From Bacteroidota bacterium (GTDB lineage: Bacteria > Bacteroidota > Bacteroidia > Chitinophagales > Chitinophagaceae): a stretch of 39,857 bases of DNA. Positions 5,945-39,857 of the stretch are shown here, piece after piece. Under the pieces are notes generated by a model, which saw only the letters and a list, made by a program, of their open reading frames with translations, was not told the origin of the DNA and made no database searches. The position numbers and the translations under genes are program-made. Each line of letters opens with the position of its first letter. Positions within the stretch are counted from its first letter, which is position 1. The stretch lies in contig RDXD01000368.1 in NCBI GenBank assembly GCA_004292575.1, positions 1 through 39,857 of the forward strand, read 5' to 3'.

Positions 5945-6619
5945 ATGACATCAAAATACATGACTTGGGCGTTTGCAGCAGCTACAATTGCCCTAAGCGC
6001 TGTGTGCACAAACCTGCAAGCGCAAGCCTTTACCGACAATACGCAGGATGCCGCGCCATCGCTTCCCGTAAAACTGCTGAGCTTTTCGGGCAAAAGACTG
6101 GCTTCGAACGTGGCGCTGAGCTGGGTAACCGCCAACGAACAAAATAACCGCCACTTTAACATTGAACGCTCGGGCGATGGCACCAGTTTTAAAACCATTG
6201 GTACGGTAGCGGGTCGTGGAAACTCAACCACCACCGTAGCCTACGACTATACCGATGCCCAAGTGCCCACCGGAAATCTATTTTACAGGTTGCAGCAGGT
6301 GGACTTTGATGGAAAAAGCACCTATTCGCAAATTATTTTAATCAACAACACCGCCGCACAAACGGCATCGTTGGCAGTGACGCCCAATCCCGTGCGGAGC
6401 AATGTGTTTACGGTAAAATTCGACAACATACCGGTTGGCATTTACGCCATTTCCATTGTGGGTGTTAATGGTGCCAACATTTATCATCGCATGCATAACC
6501 ACCGCTTTGCAACGGAGGTAGTACAGTTTTATATGGACAAAAAGCCGCCAACCGGGGTTTACGTGCTAAGCGCATCAAACGGCACCGAGCGCATTTGGCA
6601 AAAGTTGGTGATAGACTAA
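5945..6619 (+). CDS. Short secreted protein consisting mainly of a T9SS type A sorting region
   Basis: Signal peptide, LPVKLLSFSGKR...NNRHFNIERSGDG...FYRLQQVDFDGK, then TPNPVRSNVF...GVYVLSASNGTERIWQKLVID. Confidence 0.75.
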   Translation: MTSKYMTWAFAAATIALSAVCTNLQAQAFTDNTQDAAPSLPVKLLSFSGKRLASNVALSWVTANEQNNRHFNIERSGDGTSFKTIGTVAGRGNSTTTVAYDYTDAQVPTGNLFYRLQQVDFDGKSTYSQIILINNTAAQTASLAVTPNPVRSNVFTVKFDNIPVGIYAISIVGVNGANIYHRMHNHRFATEVVQFYMDKKPPTGVYVLSASNGTERIWQKLVID

Positions 6620-6729
6620 TGAAGGCGCCACAATTGCCAGTGGACGGTAGATTTGCCAAATGGACAGCGCAGCAAGCCCCCGCCAACGGGTACACATTTG
6701 GCACAGCTGCCAAAACCAGTAGCTTGAGT

Positions 6730-7632
6730 ATGAAGAATAGAAATAATATGAACATGAGATGGGTATTTGCGCTGCTTTGCTTTGCCATGGCCCATGTTTC
6801 CACCGCACAACCCACGCCCAGTACGGTGGGTAAAATGGCATTTTATTTTGATAACGGGGGCAAGATGAAAAGCCCCATAAAGGTGTTTTATTATAGCCCC
6901 AAGGCAGATGCTGCAAATTTGCCCATCGTTATGCTAATGCATGGTGCAGAACGTGATGCTTCGGCGTATATGGATGGGGTTATTAGCACTGCCAACACGC
7001 TGGGCTGCATTGTTATTGCTCCCGAGTTTGACAAAGAGGACTACAACGGTGCCGATTTGTACAACTTGGGCAATGTCTATGACCGCAACAGAAAAAGCTT
7101 TACCGCTGCCAAGCAGTGGAGTTTTTCTTTAATAGAGCCTTTGTTTGACTTTGTGGTGAAGAAAACGGAAAGCAAAAGTACCGGGTATTATTTATACGGC
7201 CACTCGGCAGGGGCCCAGTTTGTGCACCGGTTTTTAATGTTTGTGGATGGACCCCGCGTTATAAGGGCTGGCATGGCCAATGCGGGCTGGTACACCCTGC
7301 CCGATGTGCAAATGGCGTTTCCGTATGGCCTAAAGGGCAGCCCGGTAGATACGTCAAAGCTGGCCCGGTTTTTTGCCACCCGCGTATGTGTGCTGTTGGG
7401 CACTGCCGATACCGATAGAAGCAGTGTGGGTTTCAACGTGACCGATGAGGCCGAAGCGCAAGGCAAAACGCGGTTTGAGCGGGGCAAATACTATTTCGAA
7501 AACTGTAAAGCAACCGCTGCACATTTGCAATCGGTATTTAACTGGGAGCTGATATTGGTGCCCGATGTGGGCCACAACAATGGCAAAATGGCCGAAACGG
7601 GGCTGCCTTGCCTGTTGGGTGTGCAAAAGTGA
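6730..7632 (+). CDS. Secreted alpha/beta hydrolase-fold protein (esterase/PHB-depolymerase-like)
   Basis: Signal peptide; VMLMHGAERDASAYMD; nucleophile elbow LYGHSAGAQF; late GHNNGKM. Confidence 0.75.
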   Translation: MKNRNNMNMRWVFALLCFAMAHVSTAQPTPSTVGKMAFYFDNGGKMKSPIKVFYYSPKADAANLPIVMLMHGAERDASAYMDGVISTANTLGCIVIAPEFDKEDYNGADLYNLGNVYDRNRKSFTAAKQWSFSLIEPLFDFVVKKTESKSTGYYLYGHSAGAQFVHRFLMFVDGPRVIRAGMANAGWYTLPDVQMAFPYGLKGSPVDTSKLARFFATRVCVLLGTADTDRSSVGFNVTDEAEAQGKTRFERGKYYFENCKATAAHLQSVFNWELILVPDVGHNNGKMAETGLPCLLGVQK

Positions 7633-13792: not shown

Positions 13793-13949
13793 CACTTAAT
13801 AAAATGAAGCAATCACAAAAGAATACACAGAAAGTCCCCCGGAAAACTACCGGGATTAACCCGTTTGTGGAATTTCATTTTCCCCTTTGTACCCGAAAAC
13901 CCACCCTTTATCATTCGTTATTTATTATTTCTTATTCCTTATTTACTAT

Positions 13950-15441
13950 ATGACCTTCCCTTCCATTGAAATACAAGGCTCCATCATTTCAAGCGACCTG
14001 CTCGGCAAAATACGCGGCGAACAGGCCCCGCATCAGCAGGGCAAGGATTTTGTACCCGGCTTTACCGATGCCAGGCTGAAAGATGAAATAAGCCTTGCAT
14101 GGCAGGAAGCCAAGGGGCAATGGACCATTTTTAAAAGCAAACTTGCAAGGCTAAAGGAAGGCGAAACCGGCACATCCGAAACCCGCAATTTCTGGATGGT
14201 GCCGCTGCTGACCAACCTCGGCTACAACTTGAATTTTAATCGGCAATCGGAAGAACTCAATGGCAAATTATTTCCCATTGGTTACCGAGATACCAACCTC
14301 GACAACTTTCCCATTTTTATAGACGGCTACAACGAATCGCTAGACCGTCGCCCCCGATAGCAAGCTGCTGCGGGCAAGCCCGCATGCGCTGATGCAGGAA
14401 TGCCTGAGCCACAGCGAATACCTATACGGGCTGGTAACCAATGGCCGGCAACTGCGCCTGCTTCGCGATGCAAGCCGTATTACCCGCCTCAGCTATGTGG
14501 AGTTCAACCTTGAGAAAATGATGGACGAAGACCTGTATGCGGACTTCGTTATCTTTTACCGGCTGTTGCATGCCTCGCGTATGCCCAAAAGCATGGATAC
14601 GGGCAGCGAAAGCATCCTCGAGCATTACCATCAGGATGGGTTGGCCGCCGGCAGCACCATCCGCAGCAACCTTGGCATGGCGGTGGAAAAAGCCATCCTC
14701 AACCTTGCCAATGGTTTTGTGAATCATCCTGAAAATGCCGCCTTACGCAAAGCCATTGACGACGGGCAGCTTGACCCTGATGAATACTACCGGCACATGC
14801 TGCGCATTATTTACCGCCTGGTGTTTTTGTTTGTAATAGAAGAACGCAACCTGATATATGCCGATAGCAAAACACCCGAAACCAAACGTTTTACCCAAAT
14901 TTACTTCAACCATTTCAGCCTGATGCGGTTGCGCAAATTGGCCGGTAAATTACAACCGCCCGAAGCCGACCGCCATTACGATGGCTGGCAAGGCCTGCTG
15001 AATACCTTTGCCCTGTTTGAAAAACCTGCGCTTGGCAGGCAACTTGGTATTATGGCCTTGCAGGGCGATTTGTTTGGCTACCATACTATTACCTGTCCGC
15101 ATTACGATTTACACCAATGCCGGTTGAGCAACAAAGTGCTGCTTGATGTGGTAAAATCGCTTAGCTATTTTGAAAACGAGAATAAAGTAGGCATTGCGGT
15201 AAACTACGGCGGGCTTGATGTGGAAGAATTTGGCAGCGTGTACGAAGGCATGCTGGAACTGAAACTGAAAGGCGAATATATACCCGGCACCGAACAATAC
15301 CGGTTTGATTGGGCCAACAGCGGCGAAAGGGGTAAAAGCGGCAGCCACTATACACCCTATACGCCCGAAGAATTGGTGCAACCCCTGATAAAACATTTGC
15401 TGAATTATGTGATTCAGGACAGCGTGGAAAGTGGGGAGTGA
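13950..15441 (+). pseudogene. N-terminal portion of an Eco57I/type IIG-like adenine DNA methyltransferase/restriction protein, frameshifted and lacking the catalytic domain
   Basis: MTFPSIEIQG...NESLDRR(P)DSKLLRASPHALMQECLSHSEYLYGLVTNGRQLRLLRD...; single extra C in C5 tract 14351-14355; stops after SGSHYTPYTPEELVQPLIKHLL, before methyltransferase motif I. Confidence 0.75.
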
Positions 15442-26012: not shown

Positions 26013-26957
26013 TTATTTACTCAACAAGTTTATTCTTTCTGCTACTGTTTTATTTAATTTAGTTTTTTGTTCCTCAGGCAAAAAGCTGTTGTCAATCCAC
26101 CATTTAGCTTTTTTCAATTTTTGTGAAAATGAATAAAAGCTGTTTTGAACTTGCTTTTCTGAAATGGAAAGATTTTTTGCCAAAGCCGCAAAGTCCTTTT
26201 TAGTTAATTTGTTTTTTCTTCCATTCAGTGTTAATGCCATTTGTTCTGATTCGTTTTTTATGACCAGCATTGTGCTTACCAAATCATAGGAAGGGCTTAA
26301 AGCGAATTGTCCTTCTTGTTTCTCCAACATTGAAAAGTTTTTCAAGTGCATATCTGCATTGCCGGTTATGAAACCGAATACTACCAGTTCAAAATAATTT
26401 ATAGTATCCAGTCCGGCTTGGGTAGAGTATTGCTTAATTATTTTGCCTGTTTTTTCGTAACTGCCTCTATATTTATGCTCGGTCAGTATTTCTGACAGCT
26501 GACATAAATCTTCACAAGACAATTTGTTTTCATTTTTCCTGTCAAACCGCTGAGTAATGTATGCTAATCCTCCTGCTGGCAATCTAATTAAACCATGCGT
26601 TGCTGTTTCAATTCCGAATGTTTCAGCAAGGTGCATACATAGGTCTTCGTTTTCAGGTAACGATTGGTAGGTTTCACTTTGTGGTTTTATGATATAGTTG
26701 CTCTTATCATCAACAAGTGTGAAACGGATACTTTTTTTACTCTCATCCAACCACAAACTTAATTTGGGTTGCACGCCAGTTATGGCTGTGTTTGAACCTA
26801 CAATTTTTTTTGCGTAGGCAGTCATTTTCTTTTCATCAATATCAATCTCTGGAATTTGCTTTAAGCCAAAAGTCTTCATCACACATTTTGTATGGTAATC
26901 TATTTCGTCTTTACTCAAGGGGGTATAGCAGAGTAGGCAGTTCATTTTATTTACCAT
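26013..26957 (-). CDS. HipT-like HipA-family Ser/Thr kinase toxin
   Basis: TGVQPKLSLWL, LPAGGLAYITQRFDRK, GFITGNADMHLKNFSM catalytic loop, LSPSYDLVST; lacks the HipA N-subdomain. Confidence 0.85.
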   Translation of the reverse strand: MVNKMNCLLCYTPLSKDEIDYHTKCVMKTFGLKQIPEIDIDEKKMTAYAKKIVGSNTAITGVQPKLSLWLDESKKSIRFTLVDDKSNYIIKPQSETYQSLPENEDLCMHLAETFGIETATHGLIRLPAGGLAYITQRFDRKNENKLSCEDLCQLSEILTEHKYRGSYEKTGKIIKQYSTQAGLDTINYFELVVFGFITGNADMHLKNFSMLEKQEGQFALSPSYDLVSTMLVIKNESEQMALTLNGRKNKLTKKDFAALAKNLSISEKQVQNSFYSFSQKLKKAKWWIDNSFLPEEQKTKLNKTVAERINLLSK

Positions 26958-27264
26958 TTATAATACTAATATCGCCAATGCAATCTTTACAAAGTGTAAG
27001 TAGTAGTGTCATTCTATCTCGTGGGTTTAGTTTCCAATTGTCAATAGCGATCTGCAGTAGCCATCCTTCGGGTATAAGACCGTCAAAAAAAGGCAGCATG
27101 TTTTTATCTACAAATTCCTCTGAGCGCAATGGAAGTGTTCTACTTACTGCTCCATAAAATGGATTTTGCAAATACGATTTTTCATATTGAAAGTGATACC
27201 CGTTTTCGTCCTCCCAAACAATACCAGTTAGTTTTTCCTTTTTATATACCAATCCTTTTTTCAT
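26947..27264 (-). CDS. HipS-like protein (stand-alone HipA N-terminal subdomain)
   Basis: 105 aa: YGAVSRTLPLRSEEF...LPFFDGLIPEGWLLQIA...LCKDCIGDISI; overlaps hipT-like start. Confidence 0.83.
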   Translation of the reverse strand: MKKGLVYKKEKLTGIVWEDENGYHFQYEKSYLQNPFYGAVSRTLPLRSEEFVDKNMLPFFDGLIPEGWLLQIAIDNWKLNPRDRMTLLLTLCKDCIGDISIINGK

Positions 27265-27267
27265 TGC

Positions 27268-27699
27268 TTACTGTTCTTCAATTGTTTGAATATCGTTGTG
27301 CAAAATGATTTCGGTTAAGTTATCGTCTGGCTTTTGCTGATATTTTATGGCATTATTGTTTGACACAAATTGCCATGCAGAAATTTTATTGCTTTTTTTG
27401 TCTGTAATTTCTTTTATGATGATACCATATTTAATGACTCTGTTTGTTAAGGTTATTTTTACTGCTTTATTAAAGTAGTTCCAAAAAATATCGTATGCAT
27501 CAATTTTTTGATTATCTGGTGATAGGCTAAACCCAAATAAAGCCAACACCTCATTTACTTTATTCAATTGCAAGGTTTCTTTGCCCTGCTCCAGTTCGCG
27601 AATAAACCGAATGCCAACTCCTGCTTTTGCAGCAAGTTCTTTCTGCGTTAGCGTTAGCTTTTTGCGTTGATACTTGATGAATGATGATAATTTGCCCAT
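27268..27699 (-). CDS. HipB-like HTH antitoxin/repressor with ~65-aa C-terminal extension
   Basis: LTQKELAAKAGVGIRFIRELEQGKETLQLNKVNEVLALFGFSL HTH. Confidence 0.85.
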   Translation of the reverse strand: MGKLSSFIKYQRKKLTLTQKELAAKAGVGIRFIRELEQGKETLQLNKVNEVLALFGFSLSPDNQKIDAYDIFWNYFNKAVKITLTNRVIKYGIIIKEITDKKSNKISAWQFVSNNNAIKYQQKPDDNLTEIILHNDIQTIEEQ

Positions 27700-31968: not shown

Positions 31969-32721
31969 TCATGCTAATAATTTCTCCAATTTCATTTTCC
32001 ACTTTTCCCAGTCTTTCATTTCCTTGGTCTGTAAGTCTAAAAAGTTTTGTGTGTGGTCGTGATGTATTAAATGACAAAGTTCGTGGATAATAACATATTC
32101 AATACAGCCTTTTGGTGCTTTAATTAATTCAGGATTAAGTATGATTTTTCCTTTTGGTGTGCAACTTCCCCAACGTGTCGGCATATTTTTGAATGATAAA
32201 CTATGAGATATAAACGATGATCTAAGAGACAGCCTATCTGAATTTCTTTCAAAAAAAGAAGCAAATAAAGTGCTTGCCATTTTCGTAATCTTTTCTTTTG
32301 CTCTTTCTAAATACCAATTATCAACTAGACTTTTGGCTTTAGATTTGTCATTTGTATAAGCATTCAGAAAACGTCCATTCAATTTTACACATTCATTCAT
32401 AACTCCTAACTCATAATTCATAATTCTTAGCTGATATTGTCTGCCCAGATACAAATGTGTTTCTCCACTTATGTATTTCCGTTGTGGTGTCTTTGGTTGA
32501 AAAGAAAGAAAGAAACTTTGTTGCTTAATTATCCAAGGTGCTTTTTTTCTTATTTTCTCTTTCACTTTCTCCAAGGTGGTGTCTGTCGGTGCTTTTACTA
32601 AAACATCCATTTCAGGCGTTACAGTTATGCCAAGTGATTTTCTGTCGGAATACTCTAAGCGAAAATCTATTTGCCTACTCCCGAACTGAATATTGTCTAT
32701 TTCCTTCCCTAATTTATTCAT
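31969..32721 (-). CDS. YgjP/SprT-like zinc metallopeptidase (M48-like, HExxH)
   Basis: MPTRWGSCTPKGKIILNPELIKAPKGCIEYVIIHELCHLIHHDHTQNF. Confidence 0.92.
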   Translation of the reverse strand: MNKLGKEIDNIQFGSRQIDFRLEYSDRKSLGITVTPEMDVLVKAPTDTTLEKVKEKIRKKAPWIIKQQSFFLSFQPKTPQRKYISGETHLYLGRQYQLRIMNYELGVMNECVKLNGRFLNAYTNDKSKAKSLVDNWYLERAKEKITKMASTLFASFFERNSDRLSLRSSFISHSLSFKNMPTRWGSCTPKGKIILNPELIKAPKGCIEYVIIHELCHLIHHDHTQNFLDLQTKEMKDWEKWKMKLEKLLA

Positions 32722-32858: not shown

Positions 32859-35800
32859 TCACTTATATCTCAACTTCGCCACTTCAATACAATCTTCTGC
32901 AATTTTATCCATATCCTTGAATGCCAAGTCCACATTGTATTTGTCACGAACCTCATCAATCAGATAGTCGCCAATTTCGATAAGCAATTTGCCTGTGATG
33001 TTTGTTTTGTATTGCCAGTCAATAATTGGTTTCCCATTGTCTAAAACAGATTCTTGAATCAGGTCGTCAATTTGTAAAGCCGCCTGTGTTGCAACTTCTT
33101 TGCGAACAACATTGTCTTGTATCTTTTCTTTAAGTGCTTCAACTGTCAAACCGTAAAAGGCTTTGGCAACATCCCTGTCTTTTAACTGCTCCGGAATATC
33201 ATTGTCGGTATGAGCCAGTACATTGCTCATGATGTCTTGAACTCTGCTCAGGTATTGTGCTTCACTGATTCGTTTTGCCTCATAGTCTGCAATGGTTTCT
33301 CTCAGCATTTGCGAAAACTTTTTATAGAAAGCAGGATCTTCATCCATTTTCTCTGTAATGTGCTTCGCTGTTCTGCTTGCAATCTTGTCTGCTTTAGCTG
33401 CTTTACCTGTTGTGTTTTCTACTTCTTGCTGAAATTTGTCTTTGTCGAAAATGTTTACCAGTTCTGTGATGGTTTCAATCTTCTCGGTAGTAATGTGTGT
33501 ATCAATCAGTTTTTGAATTTGACCTTGATATTGTTTGTAGTCAATTTCATCACTGTATCTCTCAACAACTGCCAAACGCAATTTTAAGAACATGGTCAAA
33601 TCTTCTTTATAGCGATTGATTACCTTTTCTTCAACTTCCTTGTGGAATTGAATAGAAGATAAAGCCATTTTCAAACCCTTGGCAAATACAGCCAGTTTAT
33701 CGTAAAACGAAACTCTTATTGCTTCATCTTTTAATAATTGCTGATAAGCCTCCGCATCACGTTTGTTGGCAATAGTTTTGAAAATATCCCAAAGGTCGGA
33801 ATGCTTTTGCGGTAGTTTTTTGATTTCATCCGAAATATTGGTCATTGTTCCCGCCAAATCTTCATCATCAAAGTCTTCAAAAGACGAGTACAACTGCAAG
33901 GCATCATCCAGATTTTCAATTACACCATAATAGTCAATGATGTAACCAAATTCTTTGTCAGGATAAATACGGTTTACCCTTGCAATGGCTTGTAATAGTT
34001 TATGGCTTTGTAAATTCCGTGTGAGATATAAAACTGTGTTTTTAGGCTCATCAAAACCAGTAAGCAATTTATCAACTACAATAATGATTTCAGGGTCTTT
34101 CTGATTTTTAAAACGACTGATGATGTTCTTTTCATAACTCTTCGAATTGCCATGTTCATCCATCATCTTTTTCCAGAATTGGTTGACTCTTTCGGGTGAC
34201 TTTTCGTAAGCACTTTCTTCACCTTCTCGCTCGTCTATGTTCGATATTAATACTTCACAACTCACAATGCCTATTTCATCCAAGTATTCTTTGTACTTGA
34301 TAGCATTCACTTTTTTATCGCAAACCAATTGCCCCTTGAATGGTGTTCTACCTTGCCAGTTGTCACGAAAATGATAACTGATGTCCCAGGCAATCATTCG
34401 CATTTTTTGTTCGGCAGAATTCAAATGGTCGTTTCGGGCAAACTTCTTTTTGATGTCTGCTTTTTGGTATTCGGTTAAAGGTTCTGAAACCATGCCGAAA
34501 AAAGTATCAATCGGACTTGCATTTACATTTTGCAAAGCCAATCTTCCTTCATAAAGTAATGGAACAACTGCTTTGTCTTTTACGGCTTGATCAACCGTGT
34601 AAGCATCAATCATTCCTCCAAATTTCTCTGCTGTGCTTTTGTCTTTTTTGAATAACGGTGTTCCTGTCATTGCAATGAAACAGGCATTTGGAAGGGTCTT
34701 TTGCATGTCAATGTTAAAAGTGCCATGCTGTGTACGGTGTCCTTCATCTACCAAAACAAATATGTCGTGGTTTTCTAAAGGCTTATCTATTTTCTTAACG
34801 GCCGCCACAAATTTGTTGATGATGGTGGTTACTACTGCATCGCTTTTGTTTTCCAGTAACTCAACCAATCGTTGACCTGTAGTGGCATTTTCTACAAACC
34901 TTCCACACTTGCGGAATGTGCCTGTAATTTGATTATCCAAATCGGTACGATCTGTTACCAACACAATTTTCGGATTGCGAATGCTTGGCTCCATGGCAAT
35001 GGCTTGTGCCAGCATAACCATTGTTAATGACTTTCCGCTTCCCTGTGTATGCCAGATTACACCGCCTCTGCGTTTTCCACCTGCCTTGCCGTCAGGCAGG
35101 TTTTCAACATGTTTAATGCGTTGCATGGATTTTTTGATGGCGAAAAACTGCTGATAGCGGGTAATTTTTTTAACTCCATTTTCAAATAAAATAAAGTTGA
35201 AAGCTAAATCAATTAACCTTTCAGGGCGGCATAGGCTATACAAATATTCATCCTGAACAGTTGGCTGTATTCCTTCCTTACTTAATTCATCAAAATAATT
35301 TTTGACATATTTAAAACGGTCAGCAAACAATTCTCCTGTTTGTTTTGGAGATAAGGGTTTATTCTTAAGCTCCTTTAATTTCGCTTTATATTCTGCTTCT
35401 TCTTTATCATTGTTAAACTTTTCAGCCCATTTTGCGAAAAATTCGGGTTTTGTGTCGTTGCTGCCGTAAACTGCATCATTGGAAGAAATGCAAAGCAGTA
35501 ATTGAGAATAAACATAAAGGCTTCTAATGCCGTCTTCTTGTTGGTTTCTTAACGTTTGACTGATAGCCTGTTTCAATGGCTCTTTCATATCAGGTCGTTT
35601 GCACTCGATGATGCAAAGCGGAATACCATTTACAAACAACACCAAATCGGGGCGGTAATGCTCTTTACTGGTGCTTCGCATTACGCTGAATTCTTCGCTT
35701 ACATGAAACACATTGTTACCAATGTTTTTCCAGTCGATGTATTGCAGGGTAAAACTCTTTTTATCACCATCTACGCTTTGTTCCAATGCCTGACCTAAAG

Positions 35801-36107
35801 TAAGCAGGTTGTAAGCCTTTTCACTGGCTGCAATGTAGCCCTCGTTCATAGGCAGGTTTTTCAATGCCAAAATGCCCCGTTCAATATTATCATCTGTGAA
35901 AATGCTGGTTTTGGTCGCACTTACTCGGATGCTGTTGATTTCCTTTAACTGTTTACGCAACACATCTTCCAGCAATACATTGGTGGTTTTGCCACCTCTT
36001 TGCCTGTCGGCTTCTGCTGGACTTAAATAGGTATAACCCAAATTCACCAGCATTTGCAATGCCGGAATCTGGCTGATATGGTCTTCTTTGAAACTTGGTG
36101 TGTCCAT
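32859..36107 (-). CDS. hsdR: Type I restriction endonuclease subunit R
   Basis: RPDLVLFVNGIPLCIIECKRPD nuclease motif; GGVIWHTQGSGKSLTMVMLA Walker A; LVDEGHRTQHG; TGTPLF; ARVNRIYPDKEFGYIIDYYG. Confidence 0.96.
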   Translation of the reverse strand: MDTPSFKEDHISQIPALQMLVNLGYTYLSPAEADRQRGGKTTNVLLEDVLRKQLKEINSIRVSATKTSIFTDDNIERGILALKNLPMNEGYIAASEKAYNLLTLGQALEQSVDGDKKSFTLQYIDWKNIGNNVFHVSEEFSVMRSTSKEHYRPDLVLFVNGIPLCIIECKRPDMKEPLKQAISQTLRNQQEDGIRSLYVYSQLLLCISSNDAVYGSNDTKPEFFAKWAEKFNNDKEEAEYKAKLKELKNKPLSPKQTGELFADRFKYVKNYFDELSKEGIQPTVQDEYLYSLCRPERLIDLAFNFILFENGVKKITRYQQFFAIKKSMQRIKHVENLPDGKAGGKRRGGVIWHTQGSGKSLTMVMLAQAIAMEPSIRNPKIVLVTDRTDLDNQITGTFRKCGRFVENATTGQRLVELLENKSDAVVTTIINKFVAAVKKIDKPLENHDIFVLVDEGHRTQHGTFNIDMQKTLPNACFIAMTGTPLFKKDKSTAEKFGGMIDAYTVDQAVKDKAVVPLLYEGRLALQNVNASPIDTFFGMVSEPLTEYQKADIKKKFARNDHLNSAEQKMRMIAWDISYHFRDNWQGRTPFKGQLVCDKKVNAIKYKEYLDEIGIVSCEVLISNIDEREGEESAYEKSPERVNQFWKKMMDEHGNSKSYEKNIISRFKNQKDPEIIIVVDKLLTGFDEPKNTVLYLTRNLQSHKLLQAIARVNRIYPDKEFGYIIDYYGVIENLDDALQLYSSFEDFDDEDLAGTMTNISDEIKKLPQKHSDLWDIFKTIANKRDAEAYQQLLKDEAIRVSFYDKLAVFAKGLKMALSSIQFHKEVEEKVINRYKEDLTMFLKLRLAVVERYSDEIDYKQYQGQIQKLIDTHITTEKIETITELVNIFDKDKFQQEVENTTGKAAKADKIASRTAKHITEKMDEDPAFYKKFSQMLRETIADYEAKRISEAQYLSRVQDIMSNVLAHTDNDIPEQLKDRDVAKAFYGLTVEALKEKIQDNVVRKEVATQAALQIDDLIQESVLDNGKPIIDWQYKTNITGKLLIEIGDYLIDEVRDKYNVDLAFKDMDKIAEDCIEVAKLRYK
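35079..35101. repeat. Small palindromic element in frame within hsdR
   Basis: ACCTGCCT-TGCCGTC-AGGCAGGT; encodes NLPDGKAGG on the minus strand just before KRRGGVIWHTQGSGKS. Confidence 0.75.
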
Positions 36108-36128
36108 TACTTTTTAATTTTTAGAGAA

Positions 36129-36214
36129 CCGGATGCCCGATACAGAGAATTGAATTTGCCCGGTGCCGGAACCAATACAGAGAATCCGGATCCCGATACA
36201 GAGAATTGAAATTC
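36129..36214. repeat. Short intergenic repeat modules downstream of the AlbA_2 gene
   Basis: CCGGATGCCCGATACAGAGAATTGAAT (36129-) and CCGGATCCCGATACAGAGAATTGAAAT (36186-) with a diverged AATACAGAGAAT copy between. Confidence 0.8.
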
Positions 36215-36389
36215 AGGCACGTTTTGTCCTAAAGTGCTGATATTCAGTGTATTTAAGTATTTGCGTATTACTAGCACTATCTCTAGTAGCTGCAATACAA
36301 AGAATAGCAGCATCTGTTTCAGCATCTTCTTTAGCTGTTTTATCTTTATCATACAGAGAATCATTAACGGCATATAGATAATTAGCTGC

Positions 36390-38102
36390 TTATTCATATT
36401 TACCTCTTAGTTCTGCTATAACTGCACTTAGTAAAACATCACCTCTTAAATCAGCATATTTATCAGCAATAGAATATCGAGCACCTTTTATTTTACCTTC
36501 TACTTTCAGCACATCATCTTCCAATAGTTTCATCTTCAAATAGTTTATCTGATTTCTTGATAGGGATTCTTTTAATAAATCTTCTAAATCACCAATCTTC
36601 AAAGCGTTTCCTTGCAATGACAGAAGCAGAAGTTCAATCTCTTTTACCAAATACCTTTTGCCAATTTTCAAACCATCATTTACCAGTGCATGGTATTCTT
36701 GAGATAAAGTATATCTGTTTGTATGTCCTGATAGTTTTTCAATCAACCCTGATTTTTCCAACTGACTTACAATTTCAGCTTTAAGGTTCTGAAAAATGCC
36801 GTTGCGGATTTTGCAAAGCGTAATGATTTGCTCAACGCCCAATTTGGGTTCTTTCTCGCTGTTTTGGTATTGGCTTATGAATACATGAAATGCCTTGTCA
36901 ATAATTTCAGTTCGCAGTATTAGTGAAACCTGAAACATGTCCGAATTTTTATAGTCAGGTTCTGCCTTTCCTTCAGATAAGGTAATGGAGAAAATCTTAT
37001 CTACGCCCTGACCACTGCGTTCCACCAATCCGGTTTTTTCCAAAATTTCGGTCATTAAGCGGCTTCTGGGTGTGCTGCTTACGGTAAGAATATTTTCAAT
37101 GGTTACGCCTTTAGGGAAACCGCCCGGGTTGGTGATGGTAATTTTATTGGGATATTGCTTAACAACTGCTTCGCTGGTAATGGTATAATCTCGGTGGGCA
37201 ATGGCATTGAGAACGGCCTCACGAATTACTTCTTCGTTAAAATCGTATAAATCGAAAATATAAGCTCCTGATTGCACGGGGTATTTTCGGTTTAGGGTGG
37301 GTTGGTTAATTAGTTTCCAAATACTGTCAATGGCAATAAACAAAGGCTCGTCAATTACCTCACGGCTATCGTGGTGTATTTGTGCTTCGCTGTTGCGAAA
37401 CTCCCAAATAGTTTTGCTTTGTGGCAACTTGGCATGAATCACTTCTTTTTTTGCCAACAATGCCAATGTTGCATAATTGAGTTTGCCGTTTTCCAATAAT
37501 TTTAAATCCGTTAAAACTTGCTCGGTGCTGAGTTGCAAAAAGCCCGGGTTCTTTTGCTTACGTGCATAGCTTTCTTTCATCTTTTTGATAGCAGCTTCAT
37601 CCAAATCGGCTATGCTTATTCCTTCGCATACTTTAGCAGAAAAGTCGGGTTCTTGTTCCTGAATAATGGAGAGATACATTTCTTCCGACATTCTATCTAA
37701 ACCATCACCAACTCTCATAAGCGGCACATCATTAAAATACAAAGGCTTGCCAACAGGACGAGAAGGAATCTTTATCACCAACACCCGATTGGTTCCTTCA
37801 AACAATACTTCTGTTTGTATTCTTACTCCTGTATCACGATAAACATCTTGCTCTAATTGTCCTTCTCTTCCTTCATAGGCTATAGAGCCACAAACATTGT
37901 GTGGATGAGCATCTTCCAAACCAAAAACCAGATAGCCGCCTTTTTCATTGGCAAACGCTACGGTGTAACCCAGTACACTTTTGCGACTGCTGTTGTAGGC
38001 ATATTGATTCTTCGCCTCTTTAAACTCAACTTTATCTTCGCTTTCTTTAAGCTGTTTTATTTCCGCTATTGTCATTGGTATATTTTTAATTCGCATTTTC
38101 AA
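36390..38102 (-). CDS. AlbA_2-domain / COG2865-type ATP-binding protein
   Basis: MTIAEIKQLKESEDKVEFKEAKNQYAYNSSRKSVLGYTVAFANEKGGYLVFGLED; EEVIREAVLNAIAHRDYTITSEAVVKQYPNKITITNPGGFP; GQGVDKIF; C-terminal wHTH. Confidence 0.92.
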   Translation of the reverse strand: MKMRIKNIPMTIAEIKQLKESEDKVEFKEAKNQYAYNSSRKSVLGYTVAFANEKGGYLVFGLEDAHPHNVCGSIAYEGREGQLEQDVYRDTGVRIQTEVLFEGTNRVLVIKIPSRPVGKPLYFNDVPLMRVGDGLDRMSEEMYLSIIQEQEPDFSAKVCEGISIADLDEAAIKKMKESYARKQKNPGFLQLSTEQVLTDLKLLENGKLNYATLALLAKKEVIHAKLPQSKTIWEFRNSEAQIHHDSREVIDEPLFIAIDSIWKLINQPTLNRKYPVQSGAYIFDLYDFNEEVIREAVLNAIAHRDYTITSEAVVKQYPNKITITNPGGFPKGVTIENILTVSSTPRSRLMTEILEKTGLVERSGQGVDKIFSITLSEGKAEPDYKNSDMFQVSLILRTEIIDKAFHVFISQYQNSEKEPKLGVEQIITLCKIRNGIFQNLKAEIVSQLEKSGLIEKLSGHTNRYTLSQEYHALVNDGLKIGKRYLVKEIELLLLSLQGNALKIGDLEDLLKESLSRNQINYLKMKLLEDDVLKVEGKIKGARYSIADKYADLRGDVLLSAVIAELRGKYE

Positions 38103-39150
38103 CTACCCAAGCGATAAATTCATTGCGTAGTTTTTCCATTTGCTTTTCAGTTAATTTCTTTGCTGTAAAATCTGCTACTTTAGTGATGTTTCCTGACACA
38201 CTACTTTTTTTACTTGCGTGTAAATTGAATATGTCACCGGGCTTGGCCTCAACTTCAAATTGGTATGAATATTTTTTTCCAATACCAATTAGATTTGAAC
38301 TTGCATCTGCTGACCAATATCCCGGAAAATGTAATTTTTCCAACTTCCGTCTCATATCCAATGCAGAAGAGTACCTTGAATTTGGATCAATGTTTAAAGA
38401 TCTATTAATAATAGTTTTCAATCTTGAAGGAACAAACGGTTGATATTTTCCACTATCAGGTATTTTACCTTTTGCCTTTTTGTCTTCGTAGGTTACTGGG
38501 CCAAGAGCAATGAACTCGTTCTTTAAATTGCTTATGCCGTTTAATAAACGATAGGCAGTGCAGCCAACCTGATAGATATCTGAATGAATGCTTATAATTG
38601 GCGTTCCGCCAGCTGTTTCAGGTGCACGATGCACTTTGTATGAGTTCTTGGGCGTAACTGGTAGAATACTTGGTGAGAAGCCGGCAATGCCATAATCAGC
38701 AAGTACAGCATTTAATTGGTCATCCATTAAAATGTTTCCCGGCTTAATATCATTGTGATAAAACCCACTATTATGAAGGTATTCTAATCCAAATAAAATA
38801 TCTTGAAGAACTTTTAATGCTTGTGGTAAAGGCAGAAAGTTGTGTGAATTTAATTGGTTTGTAACTGCACCATTTTTGAAATACTCTTGTGAAATTAGTG
38901 TGTATGTTTTTCCTCCTACTGTTGCAACATCAGCATAGTGAATAGGTAACAGATTTTTGTGGTTAAACTTATTCCCAATCCTTGCTTCATCCAGTAGTTT
39001 TGCAATAGGCTCAAATGATGGCTCCAAAATTTTCAAAGCAATTTCTTTACTAATGGAATTATCCAACGCATGCCATACCTCGCCAAAGTTGCCTCCTAAC
39101 TTTTTGATTAAGGTAAATTTGTAAATGTTATCTCCAGGGTTAAAACTCAT
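38086..39150 (-). CDS. Eukaryotic-like Ser/Thr protein kinase (HND/DYG variant)
   Basis: KLGGNFGEVWHALDNSISKEIALKIL, YHNDIKPGNILMDDQLNAVLADYGIAG, HRAPETAGG. Confidence 0.92.
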   Translation of the reverse strand: MSFNPGDNIYKFTLIKKLGGNFGEVWHALDNSISKEIALKILEPSFEPIAKLLDEARIGNKFNHKNLLPIHYADVATVGGKTYTLISQEYFKNGAVTNQLNSHNFLPLPQALKVLQDILFGLEYLHNSGFYHNDIKPGNILMDDQLNAVLADYGIAGFSPSILPVTPKNSYKVHRAPETAGGTPIISIHSDIYQVGCTAYRLLNGISNLKNEFIALGPVTYEDKKAKGKIPDSGKYQPFVPSRLKTIINRSLNIDPNSRYSSALDMRRKLEKLHFPGYWSADASSNLIGIGKKYSYQFEVEAKPGDIFNLHASKKSSVSGNITKVADFTAKKLTEKQMEKLRNEFIAWVVENAN

Positions 39151-39605
39151 TACTTTAAATTTTTAATTGCGGCTGCAATAGCATCTGCCATTTGCGAATC
39201 CCAGTTTGTAGTTGACTTGGTGACTTTAGATTCCACGAATGAAACCACCTCTTTACTTTTTGTACCAATGGATGTATAAATGTGGGATGAAAAAGGTGTG
39301 TTGTTTTCAATAGCAACCATAGTTGCCAAACAGTCTAAAAACATAACAGGCCTAACGCTGCTGTATCTAGTTGGTACATTCTCATTTTGCTTGATTGCCA
39401 TGTGGTCGAATGGACCGTATTTATCAAAAATTCTTTTAAACTCACTTTTCACCCATTGGAAAATTTCCGCTTCAGTTTTTAGTGATTTGGGCATATCAAT
39501 TTTGTTTTCACCATTATGATTGATGAAAACATAAGTAGTTGCATCTCCTTCGATAATGCTGAACCTGATTTTTGTTGGCGAATTTCTAATTCCTAATACT
39601 TTCAT
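39150..39605 (-). CDS. Small protein, possible RNase H/RuvC-like (DUF3010-like) fold
   Basis: MKVLGIRNSPTKIRFSIIEGD..., FDHMAIKQNEN..., IYTSIGTKSKEVVSFV..., WDSQMADAIAAAIKNL; 1-nt TAATG overlap with kinase start. Confidence 0.5.
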   Translation of the reverse strand: MKVLGIRNSPTKIRFSIIEGDATTYVFINHNGENKIDMPKSLKTEAEIFQWVKSEFKRIFDKYGPFDHMAIKQNENVPTRYSSVRPVMFLDCLATMVAIENNTPFSSHIYTSIGTKSKEVVSFVESKVTKSTTNWDSQMADAIAAAIKNLK

Positions 39606-39606
39606 G

Positions 39607-39857
39607 TTAATTAATTTTAAGTCTCACTTTACCAGTCAACAACTGCTGCATCAACCCCTTTTTCCGCTCCCTCAACTTCTCTGCTTTGGCTTTGAGCAGG
39701 CTAATTTCTTTATCTGCCGCTTCAAGCACCTGGGCTATGGCGGTTTGTTCTTCGAATGATGGATTTGGAATTTTTACTATGCAAAAATCATCGTAGCTAA
39801 TTTGTTTACCATCTCTAATGCCAATTACTGCTGTTGCTAAACGCCCAATAAATTCAT
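39607..39857 (-). CDS. hsdS: Type I restriction specificity subunit, C-terminal part (partial; runs off window)
   Basis: EFIGRLATAVIGIRDGKQISYDDFCIVKIPNPSFEEQTAIAQVLEAADKEISLLKAKAEKLRERKKGLMQQLLTGKVRLKIN*. Confidence 0.93.
   Translation of the reverse strand, partial: EFIGRLATAVIGIRDGKQISYDDFCIVKIPNPSFEEQTAIAQVLEAADKEISLLKAKAEKLRERKKGLMQQLLTGKVRLKIN

Follow-up and report, generated by a model that had tools for sequence, protein, structure and literature searches.

Two genes lying between hsdS and hsdR of a type I restriction-modification (R-M) operon form an obligate, overlapping and co-evolving pair. One encodes a RuvC-like protein (RNH) and the other a Ser/Thr kinase (STK). The explanation we favor, tentatively and at somewhat less than an even chance, is that the hsdS-hsdR slot of the operon houses RNH-STK as an embedded immune module of two genes that acts autonomously. 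The pair probably forms an extra anti-virus alarm; its defense activity, trigger and substrate are what we infer.

Gene order and spacing in the window

The window, which is the whole stretch of DNA analyzed, is one contig of 39,857 bases from a fragmented genome (4.07 Mb, 539 contigs). On the minus strand, reading from the contig end, the gene order is hsdS (3′ end), RNH, STK, AlbA_2, hsdR and YgjP:

39607..39855, minus strand: hsdS, last 82 aa, truncated where the contig stops at 39857 (PADLOC Specificity_I 2.4e-24; Pfam Methylase_S 9.5e-4, below its cut-off)
39150..39605, minus strand: RNH, 151 aa, a RuvC homolog without a nuclease site (pseudo-RuvC), from its AlphaFold2 model, PDB fold matches and profile comparison with RuvC
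38086..39150, minus strand: STK, a 354-aa Ser/Thr kinase whose C-terminal domain (residues about 275-354) is private to it (Pkinase 2e-30)
36390..38102, minus strand: SLFN_AlbA_2 and HATPase_c_4 protein, a variable cargo gene (Pfam SLFN_AlbA_2 3.3e-11, HATPase_c_4 6.8e-16)
32859..36107, minus strand: hsdR, type I restriction subunit (TIGR00348 461 bits, cut-off 285; PADLOC REase_I 694 bits)
31969..32721, minus strand: YgjP/SprT-like metallopeptidase (Pfam YgjP-like 6.7e-48)

Every gene named in an earlier sequence-only reading of this DNA is present, and the 1-nt gap between hsdS and RNH and the TAATG overlap of RNH with STK are as it described. Its 17-bp overlap between STK and AlbA_2 holds if AlbA_2 starts at a TTG, but an in-frame ATG at 38096 is the more likely start and gives an overlap of 11 bp. 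The tight spacing that it reported is real from hsdS through AlbA_2, but AlbA_2 and hsdR are separated by 282 nt and hsdR and YgjP by 137 nt. The type I R-M components of the window are hsdR and the end of hsdS. No cognate hsdM was found in the 539-contig assembly (best match 31% identity), and the contig ends inside hsdS, with the place of hsdM past that end; hsdM is present in the loci of relatives.

The 282-nt gap between AlbA_2 and hsdR (window 36107-36397) is 82% identical to the corresponding gap of locus L009 (3545-3829) and holds ATTCTCTGTATC repeats. The AlbA_2 reading frame is still protein-like past its stop codon, which suggests a decayed longer C-terminus. Elsewhere in the window, a HipA_C protein with a helix-turn-helix gene upstream (26013-27699) makes up a HipBA-like kinase toxin-antitoxin locus, in which the N-terminal part of HipA is apparently a separate short ORF. 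Two shortened ORFs at 13887-15441 resemble parts of the DISARM methyltransferase DrmMI or of type IIG enzymes, and probably represent a decayed defense gene.

The RNH-STK pair and its distribution

RNH has the fold of the RuvC family (PF02075) and lacks a full set of its catalytic acids. Its AlphaFold2 model, built from 25 sequences, has a pLDDT of 94, and RuvC accounts for each of the 12 best PDB matches in the fold search (best E 1.2e-9; TM 0.72-0.79 to the query). Compared as a profile with 20 cellular RuvC proteins, among them the genome's own copy, RNH gave E 3.6e-8. RNH matched no family above cut-off in Pfam, NCBIfam or PADLOC, and its sub-threshold RuvC matches (Pfam E 0.005, PHROG 0.004) were a mere lead before the fold search. 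The likeness to the RuvC Holliday-junction resolvase is thus one of fold and profile (TM about 0.78), whereas all 25 members reverse the charge at the first two catalytic acids, Asp to R7 and Glu to K72. The last catalytic Asp (D141) is kept in 25 of 25. With R7 and K72 in these positions a metal-dependent nuclease site is not expected, and the reading of RNH as an active nuclease was rejected; judged by its residues, the protein should not cut. The RNase H/RuvC-like assignment in the sequence-only reading therefore stands as to RuvC ancestry but not as to a nuclease site. R14, N29, W51, E55, Y110 and W135 are also invariant and would mark a pocket or surface under selection. The RNH gene is distinct from the genome's own ruvC.

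STK was called a Ser/Thr kinase from the start, and this is borne out. The glycine loop, Lys, C-helix Glu, catalytic Asp and DFG Asp of an active enzyme are all present, K40, E55, D134, N139 and D152 are invariant in 23 aligned sequences, and the motifs take the variant forms HND and DYG. The kinase site is thus intact and looks active. In the AlphaFold2 model (pLDDT 91) the fold search returns a PknB-like kinase; long structural alignments with AMPK were set aside, with an rmsd above 22 A. Residues about 275-354 make a small strand-rich domain with a long terminal helix, for which no PDB relative was found by sequence. The STK of L020 is shortened to 284 aa.

The RNH profile was scanned against one genome per species (about 85,000 bacterial and archaeal species; 24 loci), viral contigs (2 loci) and plasmids (3 records, of which two come from Methylocystis plasmids that are nearly identical). 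No match occurred in phage records, and a search with a composed consensus query returned solely records already known. The comparison set comprises 29 loci including the window, with duplicates such as L005/L011 and L007/L010 omitted. The pair is rare. Counting the window's genome, RNH occurs in 2 of 398 genomes of its order and 2 of 396 genomes of its phylum, and the nearest pair-bearing relative (G244) belongs to the same family; the pair was absent from 385 other alphaproteobacterial genomes.

STK lies directly after RNH in all 28 loci in which the contig continues, so the coupling of kinase and RuvC-like protein seen by the sequence-only reading is conserved. A profile of the STK C-terminal domain matched two of 388 genomes of the order, the window's and G244, which are the two that bear RNH. 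Among plasmid kinases, those linked to RNH score 267-272 bits and the next best 110 bits, in the kinase domain only. Between RNH and STK the correlation of identity matrices is r=0.96, similar to that between HsdM and HsdR (0.97) or YgjP and HsdR (0.95), whereas STK and HsdR reach 0.81. Within Bacteroidota the values are 0.98 for RNH-STK and 0.41 for STK-HsdR (p=0.08, 6 loci only). The window and L008 share 84% identity in RNH and 86% in STK but 54% in HsdR. Divergence of RNH and STK as one, less in step with HsdR, marks the pair as a mobile module, a unit that moves between backgrounds.

Twenty of the 29 loci lie inside type I R-M operons, where an embedded guardian would be located, and the neighbors include other defense genes; the defense setting proposed by the sequence-only reading is upheld. 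In one of these (L019) the S gene alone is visible. The type I form reads half-S, M, slot 1, S, RNH, STK, slot 2, R, YgjP. The layout is not chance, since Bacteroidota, Alphaproteobacteria and Acidobacteria share the order hsdS-RNH-STK-(X)-hsdR-YgjP although their RNH identity is about 30%. Six loci are solo (L013, L016, L017, L026, L027 and L028; in L016 and L017 a contig end lies close upstream), and three of these six genomes have no match to HSDR_N, the HsdR N-terminal domain. On a tree of RNH and STK, 5 changes are required to place the solo label, and well-supported branches force at least 4 of them, while long rows such as L026 leave details unsure.

In the remaining three loci (L022, L023 and L025) the pair follows a different set of methyltransferase and specificity genes, accompanied by a HAS-barrel (HerA-like) gene, and within the stretch examined no HsdR was seen. 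This locus, near-identical in three distant genomes, contains two N6-methyltransferases, two specificity-like genes, RNH-STK, a 1354-aa protein without a Pfam or PADLOC match, and the HAS-barrel gene. PADLOC assigned it no named system, solely methyltransferase and S models.

The place after STK is occupied by AlbA_2 in L009 (82% identical), Fic in L011 (the Edaphocola aurantiacus locus), DUF3800 in L024, DUF4917 (PADLOC candidate PDC-S21) in L018 and solo L013, or nothing. Because this place varies, we rejected AlbA_2 as a core component, and its presentation in the sequence-only reading as a fixed part of the system must be given up. Between M and S one finds GIY-YIG, RhuM, Fic, or a CBASS cyclase with an HNH-SAVED effector (L008), and in L007/L010 a Pycsar cyclase with a PycTM effector separates S from RNH. 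Ten close HsdR relatives lacking RNH-STK carry in the S-R gap AbiD, TIGR04141/DUF6119 (four), Shedu with HAD, Shedu with DUF3800, DUF3800 with an unknown gene, Fic, or an unknown gene; these varied defense-type fillings mark the gap as an insertion site for such genes. Within this HsdR clade, interchangeable defense-type genes in two slots, hsdM-hsdS and hsdS-hsdR, were observed in L003, L004, L008, L010, L034-L037 and L058-L063. In L005 (Edaphocola; 6547-7622) the Fic gene of the STK-hsdR slot is split into two overlapping ORFs, probably by a frameshift.

YgjP adjoins hsdR in 18 of the 19 hsd loci with RNH-STK (in the remaining one the contig ends) and in all ten relatives lacking the pair. 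No complete operon was seen without YgjP after hsdR, and its divergence keeps pace with that of HsdR. YgjP may be a component of the R-M system, with a part, for example, in controlling restriction.

Possible roles of the pair

Several observations argue for an autonomous immune module. First, the pair is obligate and its members track each other more closely than they track HsdR. Second, solo pairs arise at least four times on the tree, and three of the six solo genomes have no HSDR_N match. Third, the neighboring genes include CBASS, Pycsar, DUF4917 (PDC-S21), Fic and DUF3800, and the same slot of related operons receives AbiD, Shedu, Fic and TIGR04141. Two points count against autonomy. The 23 of 29 loci that lie in methylation-based systems, usually just after a specificity gene, hint at a dependence on M/S, and the solo pairs could be remnants.

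If the pair is such a module, RNH and STK would form a complex in which the pseudo-RuvC, the STK tail or both sense an infection cue, for example unusual phage DNA or an inhibited M-S complex. The sensing part would restrain or license the kinase. Once triggered, STK would phosphorylate proteins of the cell or phage and stop growth, so that kinase-driven arrest backs up restriction in the manner of embedded PrrC. Whichever gene comes after STK, AlbA_2 in the window, would be a further exchangeable effector or regulator.

The main rival, though on balance unlikely, is that the pair regulates R-M: a kinase guided by the pseudo-RuvC would phosphorylate HsdR, M or S and so gate restriction (as in alleviation after DNA damage), possibly with the help of the YgjP peptidase. 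The 20 type I operons and the 3 loci with another methyltransferase favor it, as does the usual position of the pair just downstream of a specificity gene, the third context included. There is also reported precedent in EcoKI, with threonine phosphorylation of its HsdR and control of the enzyme by proteolysis (PMC3874165; PMC11109961). However, solo pairs occur in genomes without an HSDR_N match, the pair has swapped HsdR backbones (window versus L008), no HsdR was seen in the L022-type loci, and in most relatives of the window's HsdR the pair is missing and other genes occupy the slot. Phosphorylation-gated restriction, which the sequence-only reading offered, is for these reasons a poor fit as a general mechanism, also to the 6 loci lacking nearby hsd. 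An abortive-infection back-up, its other suggestion, or a guard back-up would be the better reading.

It is distinctly unlikely that the pair behaves like a toxin-antitoxin system, in which a toxic kinase neutralized by RNH would stabilize the operon or plasmid, with defense as a side effect. A small first gene does directly overlap the gene for a potentially toxic enzyme, the two are inseparable, and they occur on plasmids and beside other toxin-like genes; yet RNH, as modeled, is rigid in its RuvC fold and conserved in its pocket residues, unlike a typical labile antitoxin. Very improbable is the view that these are passengers without a defense role: the slot takes many unrelated genes and the pair is rare, but the pair, its order and its key residues are kept across phyla at about 30% RNH identity, and it recurs in methylation-based loci.

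A new immune class is also conceivable, if rather unlikely. The nuclease-dead RuvC would be a structure-specific DNA sensor (of phage replication or recombination intermediates, for example) that switches on a dedicated kinase, the whole being self-standing and able to plug into R-M and other methylation-based systems. If true, a pseudo-resolvase would be employed as an immune sensor, and recognition of phage DNA would be linked to protein phosphorylation without nuclease activity. On any reading, RNH-STK is a compact and testable candidate system of two genes, conserved across phyla, with clear targets for mutation in the kinase (K40/D134) and the pseudo-site (R7/K72). The case for the hsdS-hsdR slot as a trading post for defense genes is strengthened, and screening of such slots should reveal more systems.

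Comparison with known systems

Embedded type I modules and defense kinases are already known; the pseudo-RuvC/kinase pair is absent as a system from PADLOC, Pfam and NCBIfam, in which no model for it scored above cut-off. A literature search of open-licence papers returned no description of the pair.

PD-T4-6, MAD6 of MADS and PglW of BREX have a PknB-type Ser/Thr kinase domain, as does STK, and MADS and BREX likewise join a kinase with a methyltransferase. However, the matches are limited to the kinase domain, and STK has its private C-terminal domain and RuvC-like partner. Membership in MADS and BREX was rejected on scores: STK reaches 116.8 bits against the NCBIfam cut-off of 460 for MAD6, and 27.8 bits against 990 for PglW. 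Nor is there a full mad gene set, as the neighbors in the window match type I R-M models, with weak generic mad5/mad8 matches only.

Other parallels are in placement. The prrC gene is embedded in the EcoprrI type I operon (PMC3874165) and serves as a latent back-up that inhibition of the R-M enzyme releases. Its product cuts as a tRNA anticodon nuclease, whereas here a RuvC-fold protein is joined to a kinase and the pair is also found without hsd. TgvAB, whose anti-phage activity has been tested and which is embedded in a cholerae type I operon (PMC11411939), and DarTG2, located between hsdS and hsdR, are two-gene modules like RNH-STK, but their proteins (a GmrSD-like type IV enzyme and a toxin-antitoxin system, respectively) are unrelated to it. 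PrrC, TgvAB and DarTG2 are all published type I-embedded modules with tested defense, and this precedent argues for an immune module in RNH-STK as well.
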